A DNA stretch of 37,516 nt, taken from NCBI GenBank assembly GCA_903892675.1, contig CAITJJ010000292.1, positions 1 to 37,516 on the forward strand, in the 5' to 3' direction. How positions within the stretch are numbered: position 1 is the stretch's first letter; each line of letters opens with the position of its first letter. Below the pieces are notes generated by a model. It ran no database searches. It was not told where the DNA came from and saw only the letters and a list, made by a program, of their open reading frames with translations. This document shows, piece by piece, positions 12,665 to 36,188 of the stretch. This DNA is from an uncultured Hyphomicrobiales bacterium (lineage in GTDB: Bacteria; Pseudomonadota; Alphaproteobacteria; Rhizobiales; Xanthobacteraceae). The position numbers and the translations under genes are program-made.

Positions 12665-12798
12665 GGTGTCGGCTCCTTTTAGCGGGGGTCTGAAATTCGG
12701 TGATTCGACTATAGCGGACTTAATTTGTTCTGCAAATGTTCTTGCCGCTTTCCACAACTTCGGCTACACTTCCAGGTAGCAGGTTGGAGATTTGCAGC

Positions 12799-14337
12799 AT
12801 GGTTCAGCGCGTCGCCACGGTTGCCTTCGAGGGCATCGATGCCCGCACGGTTGATGTTCAGGTGCAAGTCGCACCCGGCCTGCCCGCTTTCAACATTGTC
12901 GGGCTGCCCGACAAAGCAGTCTCTGAAGCTAAAGAACGCGTGCGCGCGGCGTTGGTTGCATCGGGGCTGGGGCTGCCTGCGCGCCGCATCACCGTCAATC
13001 TGGCGCCCGCCGATTTGCCCAAGGAAGGCAGCCATTACGACCTGCCGATCGCGCTCGGCCTGATGGCGGCCATCGGCGCCATTCCGCAGGACGCGATTTC
13101 CGGTTTCACCGTTTTGGGCGAACTCGGCCTCGACGGTACGATCGCCGCCGTCGCCGGCGTGCTGCCGGCCGCCATCGGCGCCAATGCGCGCGGGCAGGGT
13201 CTGATCTGCCCTGAAATTTGCGGACCGGAAGCGGCCTGGGCCAGCCCAGAAATCGAGATCGTCGCGGCACGTTCGCTGATCCAGTTGGCCAACCATTTCC
13301 GCGGCACGCAGGTGCTGTCGCGGCCACGGCCCAAGATCCGCGAAATCGACGGCGTGCCGCTCGACCTTGCCGACATCAAGGGTCAGGAAAGCGCCAAGCG
13401 CGCGCTCGAGGTCGCCGCCGCCGGCGGCCATAACCTGCTGATGGTCGGCCCCCCCGGCTCCGGCAAGTCGATGCTGGCGGCGCGCCTGCCGTCGATCCTG
13501 CCGCCTTTGTCGCCCGCCGAACTGCTGGAAGTGTCGATGATCGCTTCGGTCGCCGGCGAGATCGAAGGCGGCGCCCTGACCAACAAGCGGCCGTTCCGTT
13601 CGCCGCATCATTCGGCGTCGATGCCGGCTTTGGTCGGCGGCGGCCTGCGGGCGCGGCCCGGCGAGATTTCGCTGGCGCATAACGGCGTGCTGTTTCTCGA
13701 TGAGATGCCGGAATTCACCGGCCAGGTGCTCGACTCGCTGCGCCAGCCGCTGGAGACCGGCGAGGTCGCGATTGCCAGGGTCAATCACCGCATCACTTAC
13801 CCGGCCCGCTTCATGCTGGTGGCGGCGATGAATCCCTGCCGCTGCGGCCGCGCCAGCGATCCGGGCTTTGCCTGCAAGCGCGGCGCCAATGTGCGCTGCG
13901 CCGCCGACTATCAGGGACGGCTGTCCGGGCCGCTGCTCGACCGCATCGATTTGCATATCGAGGTGCCGGCGGTGACCGCCGCCGATCTGATCCTGCCGCC
14001 GCCATCGGAAGGCAGCCGCGAAGTCGCCGCCCGCGTCGCCCGCGCCCGCGACATCCAGGCCGAACGCTACGCCGCGCTCGGCGTGCCGGCTGTCCGTTGT
14101 AACGCGCAAGCCAGCCGCCCGATGCTGGAAGACATTGCCCGCGCCGACAATTCCGGCATGACCTTGCTGCGCGACGCCGCCGACCAGATGCGGCTGTCGG
14201 CACGCGGCTATCACCGCGTGCTGCGCGTCGCCCGAACGCTGGCCGATCTCGACGGCGCCGCCACGGTCGCGCGCGTCCATCTGGCTGAGGCGCTATCTTA
14301 CAAGGCGCTCGCCGACGAAATGCGTCGCGCGGCGTAG
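12799..14337 (+). CDS. comM: ComM/YifB-type AAA+ ATPase (magnesium chelatase-like)
   Basis: YifB/ComM family hexameric helicase, which in naturally competent bacteria extends branch migration during integration of transformed DNA. The 512 residues show an N-terminal Lon-protease-like domain (MVQRVATVAFEGIDARTVDVQ; GLPDKAVSEAKERVRAAL), a Walker A MVGPPGSGKSMLAARLPSIL about residues 214-233, the FRSPHHSASMPALVGGG segment, Walker B GVLFLDEMPEF, MLVAAMNPCRCG, a cysteine-bearing insertion, and the C-terminal Mg-chelatase subunit-like domain. The frame is open from 12736, but ATG 12799 matches the family N-terminus and has GGAG 9 nt upstream. No competence machinery is in the window, so involvement in transformation here is unproven. 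Confidence 0.94.
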   Translation: MVQRVATVAFEGIDARTVDVQVQVAPGLPAFNIVGLPDKAVSEAKERVRAALVASGLGLPARRITVNLAPADLPKEGSHYDLPIALGLMAAIGAIPQDAISGFTVLGELGLDGTIAAVAGVLPAAIGANARGQGLICPEICGPEAAWASPEIEIVAARSLIQLANHFRGTQVLSRPRPKIREIDGVPLDLADIKGQESAKRALEVAAAGGHNLLMVGPPGSGKSMLAARLPSILPPLSPAELLEVSMIASVAGEIEGGALTNKRPFRSPHHSASMPALVGGGLRARPGEISLAHNGVLFLDEMPEFTGQVLDSLRQPLETGEVAIARVNHRITYPARFMLVAAMNPCRCGRASDPGFACKRGANVRCAADYQGRLSGPLLDRIDLHIEVPAVTAADLILPPPSEGSREVAARVARARDIQAERYAALGVPAVRCNAQASRPMLEDIARADNSGMTLLRDAADQMRLSARGYHRVLRVARTLADLDGAATVARVHLAEALSYKALADEMRRAA

Positions 14338-30911: not shown

Positions 30912-31049
30912 CGGCTGGCGCGGCGCGCTTTACCAAGGACACAGAGAGACAGGTTCAGGCCGCCCCCTTTGGCTCCGCGTCCTTGTCCCTATCCGGACCC
31001 TATGTTAGCCACCGCCGCGAAAGTTCGCTGCGGTGCTCAAGGAGAAGTC

Positions 31050-31538
31050 ATGACGACCACGAATGGCGGCCAGGGTCAGGAACCGAGCCCGGATCAGTTG
31101 CCGCAGCTCAATGTGGTGGGCCAGTACATCAAGGACTTCTCGTTCGAAAATCCGAACGCGCCGAAGTCGCTGGCCGGCGGTCAGGAACCGCCGCAGATCA
31201 ACATCCAGATCAACGTCAATGCCACGCCGCTGTCGGATACCGACATCGAAGTGGTGCTGATGGTCGCCGGCAAGGCGGAAGTCGCCGGCAGCCTGATGTT
31301 CAATTTCGAGCTCGCCTTCGGCGGCGTGTTCCGCATCCGCAACGTGCCGCAGGAAAGCCTGAACGCGGTCGTGCTCATCGAATGCCCGCGCCTGCTGTTC
31401 CCGTTCGCGCGCGAGATTATCGCCACCACCGTGCGCAATGGCGGCTTCCCGCCGCTGCTGCTCGACCCGGTCGATTTCGTCGCGCTTTACCGGCAGAAAA
31501 TGGCGCAGATGGCGCCGGTCGACGCGCCGGCTCAATAG
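31050..31538 (+). CDS. secB: Protein-export chaperone SecB
   Basis: Tetrameric chaperone that keeps preproteins unfolded and hands them to SecA. From ATG 31050 (AAGGAG just upstream) it has 162 residues: [103 protein letters not shown], all hallmark SecB. The frame is open to 30969, but the internal ATG is clearly favoured. Its TAG stop directly abuts the TAG of the convergent dnaQ. Confidence 0.98.
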
Positions 31539-33509: not shown

Positions 33510-34346
33510 CTAGCTGGTGACGGGACGGCGACGGCGCTCGCCCAACAGCTTCATGACCGCCGCGGCGGTTTCCTCGATCGAGCGCCGGGTGACATCGATC
33601 AGCGGCCAGTTATGCTTATTGCAAAGCCGGCGCGAATAGGCGACTTCCTCGGCAACCGCGGTCTTGTCGATATACTGATCGTCGTCGCGATGCGCATTCA
33701 GTCCGAGCAGCCGGTTCTCGCGGATCTGCACGATGCGCTCGGGACTGGCGTAAAGCCCGATGACCAGCGGCCGCGTCAATCGTTCCACTTCCGGCGCCAG
33801 CGGCACGCCCGGCACCAGCGGCACATTGCCGGTCTTGACGCCGCGGTTGGCAAGATAGATCGAGGTCGGCGTTTTCGACGTGCGCGACACGCCGATCAAG
33901 ACGACATCCGCATCCTCGAGCCCGGCGACATGCTGGCCGTCATCATGCATCATGCTGAAGTTGAGGGCATCGATACGATGAAAATATTCGGCATTGAGCA
34001 CGTGCTGCGCGCCGGCACGCAGCGTGGTCTCGGCGCCGAGATAGGACTGGAACAGGCGCAGGATCGGGCCAAGCACCGACATGCAGGGCAGACCGAGTTC
34101 CCGGCATTTATCTTCCAGCAACTGGATCAGGTCTTCTTCCAGCAGCGTGTAAAGCACCAGGCCCGGCGCGTCGGTGATTTCGGCCAGCGCATGGTCGAGC
34201 TGTTTTTTCGAGCGCACCATCGGGTACAGATGCTCGACCGGCGAAACATTGGCATATTGCGCGGCGGCGGCGCGCGCCACCGTGATCAGTGTTTCACCAG
34301 TGGCATCGGAGACAAGATGCAAATGGAAATAGCCGGTGTCGGACAT
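33510..34346 (-). CDS. ppsR: Pyruvate, phosphate/water dikinase regulatory protein (DUF299)
   Basis: Bifunctional ADP-dependent kinase and Pi-dependent pyrophosphorylase that switches PEP synthase or PPDK off and on. The 278 residues contain [20 protein letters not shown] (about 8-27), the [16 protein letters not shown] segment, [46 protein letters not shown] (P-loop GVSRTSKT), and [19 protein letters not shown]. This is the family called RP001 in Rickettsia and Caulobacter, where it flanks the chromosomal origin; here too it borders the origin-like region before hemE. It heads the ppsR-maf-coaE-dnaQ run. Confidence 0.95.
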
Positions 34347-34367
34347 CTGTATAGCGGCCGCATGGTC

Positions 34368-34376
34368 TGTGGATAG
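34368..34376 (-). promoter_or_regulatory. DnaA box
   Basis: TGTGGATAG on the plus strand is CTATCCACA on the minus strand, 8 of 9 matches to TTATCCACA. Confidence 0.6.
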
Positions 34377-34437
34377 CTGGGGACGAACCCGGCTGGCGCG
34401 TGGCCATGTAAGCGGGCGAGGCCGGGCAGGTCAATTT

Positions 34438-34446
34438 TTGTCCACA
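34438..34446 (+). promoter_or_regulatory. DnaA box
   Basis: TTGTCCACA matches TTATCCACA at 8 of 9 positions and lies in a short T-rich context (TTTTTG) within an otherwise GC-rich stretch. Confidence 0.6.
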
Positions 34447-34698
34447 CGGCTGGTGCTGGGGTGAGATCGTAGACGCCGGAAAGGCGACTGGACTGGATTG
34501 TGGAAGCCGGGTTGGGGACAGAGCGGGAAAAGCCTTCAAACCCCAGTAAAATGGCGGCTTGCGCTGTGGACGGCTGCGGCGGGGAAATGACCGGATTCTG
34601 GATAGGGTTCTGACAAGCGGTGGACAGATTGGTGATGCTAAGTCATGAGTCCAATCGACAGCCTAATAAACACTACAAAAAGAACTTAAAGAGTCTTT

Positions 34699-35751
34699 AT
34701 GGAAGAAGCCCTTCAAAGCACTGGCATGGGGATAAAGCCGCTTATTCGCGTCCTGCAAGGTCAGCGCGAAGAGATTCCGCCGGTCTGGATGATGCGACAG
34801 GCGGGCCGGTATCTGCCGGAATACCGGCAGGTTCGTGAGAAGGCGGGCGGATTTCTCGACCTTTGTTTCAATCCGGAACTTGCTGCCGAAGTAACGCTGC
34901 AACCTGTCCGCAGGTTCGGCTTCGATGCGGCGATTTTGTTTTCGGATATTTTAATTCTGCCGTTGGCGCTCGGCCGCAAGGTTGAATTTCTGGCCGGTGA
35001 AGGTCCAAAGCTTGAGTCGATGCTGGATGGCGAAGCCCTCAAGGGCATGCGTGATCGCGCCGACACGAATATTCTGACGCCGATCTATGAAACGGTAAGC
35101 CGGGTTAAATCGGCGCTCGACGACAAGACAACGCTGATCGGGTTTTGTGGTGCTCCCTGGACAGTCGCGACCTATATGGTTGCCGGCGAAGCGACATCCG
35201 ATCAGGCGCCGGCGCGGCTGTTTGCCTACCGCGATCCAGACAATTTTTCACGGTTGATCGAGCGTCTGGTGCGCGGGTCAATCGACTATCTTGTCGGCCA
35301 GCTGAAAGCCGGCGCGGAAGTCGTGCAGATTTTCGATACCTGGGCGGGTGTGTTGCCGCCGGAAGAATTTGATCGCTGGTGCATTCAACCGACACAGAAG
35401 ATTGTCGAAGGCGTGCGGGCGCAAATGCCGGGCACCAAGATCATCGGCTTTCCGCGCGGCGCCGGCGCCATGGCGCTGCCTTATGCGGAACTCACCGGTG
35501 TCGATGGGCTGGGCCTCGACTGGATGTTCCCGCGCAGTCTGGCGCGCGATATTTTGCAGCCGCATGTTGCGGTGCAGGGCAATGTCGATCCGCTGGCCTT
35601 GCTGGCCGGCGGCGCGGCCCTCGACCGCGAAGTAGATGACGTCATGACCCTTGCTGACGGGCCGCTGATCTTCAATCTCGGTCACGGCATTCTGCCCGCA
35701 ACGCCGATCGAGCACGTCGAACGCATGCTCAAGCGCGTGCGGGGCGCATAG
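34699..35751 (+). CDS. hemE: Uroporphyrinogen decarboxylase
   Basis: Decarboxylates four acetate side chains of uroporphyrinogen III to give coproporphyrinogen III in heme synthesis. The 350 residues contain [22 protein letters not shown] (substrate Arg region, about 26-47), [28 protein letters not shown] (catalytic Asp), the [15 protein letters not shown] segment, [40 protein letters not shown] and [11 protein letters not shown], as in all HemE. It is the first gene to the right of the putative origin, and a CtrA-like box overlaps its start codon, so its transcription may be linked to the cell cycle. hemJ follows after 14 bp. Confidence 0.98.
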
Positions 35752-35765
35752 GGTAGTACGCCGCC

Positions 35766-36188
35766 ATGTACCTCTGGATCAAAGCCTTGCACGTCATCGC
35801 GGTCATCTCGTGGATGGCCGGCATGCTCTATCTGCCGCGGCTGTTCGTCTATCACTGCGCCGCCGAGCCGGGATCGACACAGGCCAAGACCTTTGAGGTG
35901 ATGGAGCATCGTTTGCTCACATACATCATGGGTCCGGCGATGGGCGTGAGCCTGATCCTGGGCTTCGTCCTGATGCTGCAGGGACAGTTGCTGAGTGCCG
36001 GCTGGCTCCACGCCAAGCTGGTGCTGGTCGTCGCGATGATTGGGATGCACGCGTTTCTGGGCCGGTGGGCGGCCGATTTTCGCATGAACCGGAATACGCG
36101 CAGCCAGAAATTCTATCGCATAATCAACGAAGTACCCACAATATTGATGATTGTAATCGTCATTCTCGTGGTGGTGAAGCCGTTTTAG
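35766..36188 (+). CDS. hemJ: Protoporphyrinogen oxidase HemJ
   Basis: Oxygen-independent-type membrane protoporphyrinogen IX oxidase used by most alphaproteobacteria in place of HemG or HemY. The 140 residues form four membrane helices: YLWIKALHVIAVISWMAGMLYLPRLFVYH (with the conserved His of KALHV), YIMGPAMGVSLILGFVLML, the GWLHAKLVLVVAMIGMHAFLG segment (conserved Lys), and NEVPTILMIVIVILVVVKPF. It lies 14 bp after hemE and is almost surely cotranscribed with it, pairing two heme steps next to the origin. The ribosome site is weak. Confidence 0.95.
   Translation: MYLWIKALHVIAVISWMAGMLYLPRLFVYHCAAEPGSTQAKTFEVMEHRLLTYIMGPAMGVSLILGFVLMLQGQLLSAGWLHAKLVLVVAMIGMHAFLGRWAADFRMNRNTRSQKFYRIINEVPTILMIVIVILVVVKPF

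Follow-up and report, generated by a model that had tools for sequence, protein, structure and literature searches.

A predicted chromosomal replication origin between ppsR and hemE in a Pseudolabrys-like Hyphomicrobiales bacterium, and relatives in which hemE lies away from the locus

The origin of Caulobacter crescentus, Cori, lies between hemE and a COG1806/DUF299 gene, and the same boundary genes flank the origins of Rickettsia and of other members of this hemE/COG1806 group, according to the available portions of PMC1914354. The same portions report a separation of hemE from COG1806 in the Anaplasmataceae, and in the predicted origins of Wolbachia, Ehrlichia, and Anaplasma one boundary gene is separated from the origin. 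Cori contains few 9-mer DnaA boxes together with W-box-like TCCCCA sites, and the accessible text of PMC4285127 gives TCCCCA as the W-box consensus and TTAA-N7-TTAA as the CtrA motif. A basal unwinding system has been described as a DnaA box, a spacer, and DnaA-trios, with a rule asking for at least three trios (PMC8287927, available in part).

We analyzed a window of 37,516 nucleotides, the whole stretch of DNA under study, in which an intergenic gap of 352 bp has the same boundary genes as Cori.

34347 to 34698, no strand: predicted oriC, the 352-bp gap
33510 to 34346, minus strand: ppsR (DUF299/COG1806, RP001 homologue), left boundary; NF003742 at 333.7 bits (cut-off 225), PF03618
34699 to 35751, plus strand: hemE, right boundary; TIGR01464 at 388 bits (cut-off 303)
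35766 to 36188, plus strand: hemJ; TIGR00701
36523 to 37516, plus strand: rho; TIGR00767 on the first 331 residues, cut by the window end

Both boundary genes matched their profiles above the cut-off, which places the gap between ppsR and hemE as an earlier note on this DNA had proposed. The parallel that the note drew with Caulobacter, whose origin it put between hemE and the RP001 gene, agrees with the gene pair given for Cori in the available text (PMC1914354). The locus is of the known alphaproteobacterial hemE/COG1806 origin type, with the gap in the position that defines it, between hemE and the DUF299 gene (PMC1914354, as far as the accessible parts go). Judging from sequence comparison, we consider it very probable that the gap serves this Pseudolabrys-like bacterium of the Hyphomicrobiales as its chromosomal origin (oriC), a reading that is well supported, short of proof. 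What was less to be expected is the apparent loss of hemE from the locus in several relatives, with the origin staying.

The leftward order ppsR-maf-coaE-dnaQ and the rightward order hemE-hemJ-rho were confirmed, with maf scoring below its curated cut-offs (224 versus 269 bits and 107 versus 117 bits). The claim that both arms are transcribed in the direction of outgoing forks held for the nearest seven genes, four on the left and three on the right, but not for the left arm as a whole, which uses both strands beyond dnaQ (e.g., secB at 30969-31538 on the plus strand). By hand count, hemE and ppsR are adjacent in 31 of 36 genomes of the genus (three have them apart, one is undetermined, and in one neither gene was found) and in 17 of 24 genomes from other families of the same order; the hemE search gave a match in 58 of the 60 genomes, own genome included. 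Among the records matched, the closest named relatives were two MAGs of Pseudolabrys sp. and a third under the label Rhizobium sp., in a listing that may omit records of the own genome. One MAG locus, L032 (CAMBQQ010000077.1), is labelled Rhizobium sp. Q54, and the position and identity of its hemE locus are as in G012 of the Pseudolabrys-like genus; the label looks wrong. The Brucella pituitosa genome of locus L087 (G075) gave two ppsR matches, C1:44602-45410 and C1:2462184-2462990, near the two record ends and one of them in two pieces, possibly from an overlap of the record ends or an assembly fault.

Because the own genome is a draft of 404 contigs, GC skew was examined in relatives, from sampled stretches rather than full cumulative curves. 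GC skew reached its minimum 0.4 to 6.4 kb from the homologous gap in four relatives whose contigs are long, a distance to be read against a resolution of kilobases. The minimum was at 227,992 in G004, 5.5 kb from the gap at 222,113-222,465 (contiguous first 400 kb); at 3,989,038 in G011, 0.4 kb from the gap at 3,989,431-3,989,780 (200-kb stretch); at 1,595,163 in G019, 4.4 kb from the ppsR start at 1,590,747 (115-kb stretch); and, as a local minimum, at 219,710 in the Bradyrhizobium genome G060, 6.4 kb from the ppsR start at about 226,080. The expectation of a skew minimum at the gap was borne out in relatives. For the own genome the scope is the 37.5-kb contig, with its minimum at 33,951 and less than 3 kb available to the right of the gap. 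Across twenty sampled stretches of G004, which is a single contig, skew went from negative to positive within the interval 20-220 kb and became negative again between the samples at 2,250,001-2,270,000 and 2,475,001-2,495,000, about half a chromosome from the gap. A few samples departed from the trend: G004 was near zero at 3,825,001 and 4,050,001, the G011 sample at 3,800,001-3,820,000 gave +0.039 on an arm expected to be negative, and the G060 stretch holding hemE gave -0.006 within a positive arm. ORF strand bias in the G004 samples showed no clear pattern.

With skew minima resolved to kilobases, the true origin might lie nearby at parABS or dnaA, the gap being merely part of the origin-proximal domain. 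parB lies about 8 to 40 kb from the gap in all six relatives searched (G004, G011, G019, G026, G033, and G054), and keto-skew minima fell at about 7 kb from the gap in G004 and G011, 15 kb in G060, and 18 kb in G019, where the minimum is 2 to 2.5 kb from parB. The GC-skew minima of G004, G011, and G019 are nevertheless closer to the gap than to parB. In these three genomes the distance between dnaA and the gap is about 157, 317, and 168 kb, respectively, and in G004, where dnaA lies at 64 kb and parB lies at 197 kb, the skew is still declining beyond dnaA. A GC-skew minimum near dnaA, one of the outcomes that the earlier note named as speaking against an origin in the gap, was not seen in the three. 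On skew and gene positions, we regard an origin at parABS or dnaA as extremely unlikely; for an origin in the gap, a GC-skew switch and proximity to parB are both seen in relatives, the latter in six of six. The own draft has parB and the gap on different contigs, and the window contained no parS-like sites.

The published origin of Oligotropha carboxidovorans rests on four "DnaA boxes" of the sequence tgtttcacg (PMC3091675, available in part). The tgtttcacg boxes resemble parS half-sites, and this call may therefore mark a centromere cluster near the origin.

The gap holds the two DnaA boxes with eight of nine matches that had been predicted for it, as well as several weaker boxes, some of them W-box-like; W-boxes reportedly go back to Taylor et al. 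2011.

34368 to 34376, minus strand: DnaA box CTATCCACA (8/9); TCCACA core in 26/28 genus gaps
34378 to 34386, minus strand: W-box-like TCCCCA (TCGTCCCCA); exact core in 5/28, GGGA at 34380-34383 invariant
34438 to 34446, plus strand: DnaA box TTGTCCACA (8/9); TCCACA core in 24/28
34499 to 34507, minus strand: weak DnaA box GCTTCCACA (6/9); TCCACA core in 24/28
34513 to 34521, minus strand: W-box-like TCCCCA (CTGTCCCCA); core in 23/28
34565 to 34573, minus strand: weak DnaA box CCGTCCACA (6/9); TCCACA core in 17/28
34619 to 34627, minus strand: weak box-like CTGTCCACC; TCC[AC]C[AC] core in 23/28
34727 to 34735, minus strand: W-box-like TTATCCCCA (8/9), within the first hemE codons; TCCCCA core in 24/28

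Outside the gap, TTATCCCCA is the sole further one-mismatch match in the window. The bare count of such boxes was rejected as evidence, as 3 were found versus 2.26 expected from shuffles; clustering and conservation were therefore used instead. All three fall within 34368-34735. Four of the six TCCACA cores of the window lie in the gap, a count reached in 0 of 2,000 dinucleotide shuffles, and any other 352-bp stretch tried in 50-bp steps had at most one. TCCCCA cores are less distinctive (two of six in the gap, a count matched by 5.4% of shuffles). A repeat search of the gap found a 34-nt pair of 71% identity around two boxes, plus short pairs. The window contains no perfect TTATCCACA box, which we counted against the origin reading.

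An alignment of 28 gaps of the genus (L002 to L029, window included) shows which boxes are retained. Gap length is 350 to 354 bp in 27 of the 28 and 363 bp in one; the DnaA-box cores are colinear, and 47 of 352 columns are invariant, with identity to the window falling to 47% in the least similar of five rows compared. The gap thus contains an intergenic DnaA-box cluster whose core positions are kept in 17 to 26 of the 28 gaps, as had been anticipated for an alignment across relatives. Exact 8/9 boxes are less constant: within the gap and the first 60 bases of hemE, four of the 28 have none (L019, L020, L025, and L027), and in three more (L006, L022, and L028) the sole one is that inside hemE. 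The block from GTGGACA to AATCNAC is conserved, and TGAGTC inside it is invariant. Together with the skew minima in four relatives, this conserved, box-containing gap supports the probable origin of the earlier note.

The conserved block lies near the hemE end of the gap, among GANTC sites and beside an AT-rich tract.

34594 to 34598, no strand: GANTC (CcrM-type methylation) site, from a motif search
34644 to 34659, plus strand: conserved core CATGAGTCCAATCGAC with a GANTC at 34647-34651; TGAGTC invariant in 28/28
34691 to 34695, no strand: GANTC (CcrM-type methylation) site, from a motif search
34655 to 34698, no strand: AT-rich end of 44 bp, 68% AT, putative unwinding element

The AT-rich gap end noted earlier was recovered at 68% AT over its last 44 bp, versus about 38% for the window, a composition consistent with a putative unwinding element. 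Three GANTC sites, starting at 34594, 34647, and 34691, fall within 102 bp, in line with the three in about 100 bp first described; this density is marginal in the single gap (shuffle P of 0.058) and strong over relatives, with 110 sites in 9,864 bp of the 28 gaps (11.15/kb) versus 172 in 102,298 bp of flanks (1.68/kb). GANTC is depleted in the window as a whole (85 sites versus 182 expected from shuffles), so the density in the gap stands out. The own genome encodes DnaA, a RAMA-domain (CcrM-like) protein, and GcrA, and GANTC sites can therefore matter in this organism. The pattern RTGAGTCNAATCNAC occurs once in the own genome. Of 60 genomes searched, 30 contain it, and 29 of these are among the 36 of the genus of the window, with the match at this locus; as outliers, G019 has one additional match elsewhere and G045 a single match away from hemE. 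The reversed control pattern was found in 0 of the 60 genomes.

From the arrangement of these motifs we infer how DnaA binding, the melting site, helicase loading, and methylation control might be organized. DnaA would load on the two better boxes, at 34368 and 34438, and then spread across the weak TCCACA/TCCCCA boxes at their fixed spacing. The oligomer would reach the conserved core at 34619-34659 and melt the AT-rich end at 34655-34698 beside hemE, where the helicase would be loaded and from where two forks would depart, one through ppsR and one through hemE-hemJ-rho. The dense GANTC sites, one of them invariant within the core, would let the state of CcrM methylation mark new origins.

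This gap shares with Cori the combination of few 9-mer boxes and W-box-like TCCCCA sites, as well as the presence of GANTC sites. The 9-mer boxes differ, being TTGTCCACA and CTATCCACA in the window and TGATCCACA G-boxes in Cori. TTAA-N7-TTAA CtrA sites of the Caulobacter type were found in 0 of the 28 genus gaps, window included, a further difference from Cori, and an IHF consensus of the E. coli type, rather than Cori's own site, in one of the 28, not that of the window. The Rickettsia origin is likened to this one by its boundary genes, not by gap sequence, and it is far more AT-rich, at 82% (PMC1914354, in the parts available). By eye, the gap shows a possible likeness to the basal unwinding system, a pattern of low specificity: CTA trios come after an AATCNAC box-like element, at a distance of 3 bp in the window and of 7 bp in L013. 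The sequence CTACTACTA, with three trios by eye, is found in L013, L014, and L016. Unlike that system, the window has by eye only two trios in register, CTA-ATA, below the three asked for.

The gap is a divergent intergenic region, and its motifs could be transcription signals of a mere ppsR/hemE promoter region, with DnaA at most a regulator. A -35 element could lie near 34628, where many of the 28 rows have TTGA as conserved bases, and a hemE promoter lies inside Caulobacter Cori, which we counted in favor of this possibility. However, a consensus scan found no sigma-70-like promoter in 34250-34800, where 0.2 would be expected by chance; a terminator scan and Rfam gave no match. Relatives without hemE at the locus offer a natural deletion test. 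In 16 relatives examined, hemE is not beside ppsR, and a gap between ppsR and hemJ is retained: G019, G001, and G016 (L170, L172, and L173) and 13 loci of the Bradyrhizobium/Nitrobacter/Afipia type (L190 to L202), the latter followed up out of 33 named loci without ppsR beside hemE in the fetched stretch. All 13, as well as G001 and G016, read ppsR-gap-hemJ-rho. In G019, hemE is 1.18 Mb from ppsR, whereas ppsR-gap core-hemJ-rho is retained with the skew minimum there; sampling around hemE, at 0.2, 0.4, and 0.6 Mb, gave the same skew throughout. In G060 the minimum is about 2.27 Mb from hemE. A gap that is kept where hemE is gone is not merely a hemE promoter, and both hemE-away genomes measured, G019 and G060, have their GC-skew minimum near it. 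We therefore consider the promoter-only explanation very unlikely.

The gaps of the Bradyrhizobium type resemble that of the window in their flanking genes (ppsR and, opposite it, hemJ-rho), dense GANTC sites, a nearby skew minimum (in G060), and the TGAGTC-AAT element (8 of 13; it was not found in the other 5), and differ in the absence of hemE. Across the 16 hemE-away loci, the element lies 292 to 306 bp from ppsR in 11, compared with 300 bp in the window, and GANTC sites number 10.7/kb in the first 380 bp versus 2.1/kb in the flanks. With gap and skew minimum at ppsR where hemE is gone, the origin appears to stay with ppsR in this lineage. This tie is not a general rule: in Wolbachia, Ehrlichia, and Anaplasma it was COG1806 that moved and hemE that kept the predicted origin, unlike here, where the gap stays with ppsR and hemE moves (PMC1914354, accessible parts). 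A single-gene tree of 56 PpsR rows requires three changes for the hemE-away state, a number imposed by well supported branches. Two genomes, G017 (C88/C9) and G025 (C9/C20), have two hemE genes each, one beside ppsR and the other elsewhere, with hemE 73% and 65% identical to that of the window; they are plausible intermediates in the departure of hemE. In strain S23321, hemE is in the photosynthesis cluster (PMC4036050, available in part). A relocated hemE as a member of such a cluster was not adopted as an explanation, the ORFs beside hemE in L046, L042, and L171 being listed by position only.

A further proposal is tentative, and we think it less likely to be right than wrong: that 34619-34659, with its box-like GTGGACA, TGAGTC with GANTC, and AATCNAC, is a lineage-specific core in which a CcrM site between weak DnaA boxes gates DnaA assembly by methylation, without CtrA, and that the origin is so anchored to ppsR that hemE left at least three times in the lineage. 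The finding is ordinary in kind, its modest interest lying in the repeated loss of hemE and the conserved core with a CcrM site; it also provides a well-supported origin call for a genus represented here mostly by drafts. Among the literature matches listed (titles and abstract starts, with subscription papers mostly outside), there was no report of an origin for this genus and none on hemE loss from an origin in the order. Ori-Finder uses hemE among its indicator genes (PMC3794950, available in part). In Bradyrhizobium-type genomes this indicator points away from the likely origin, and ppsR-hemJ-rho points to it.

Two minor observations concern the annotation of the window. The stretch 22-1200 on the plus strand matches PF10712 (NAD-GH), with dnaK on the opposite strand beside grpE and hrcA. 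The match is probably an antisense shadow of dnaK, a known annotation trap. Two long ORFs also overlap on opposite strands, at 12709-14280 (minus) and 12736-14337 (plus), the one on the minus strand having no Pfam match.
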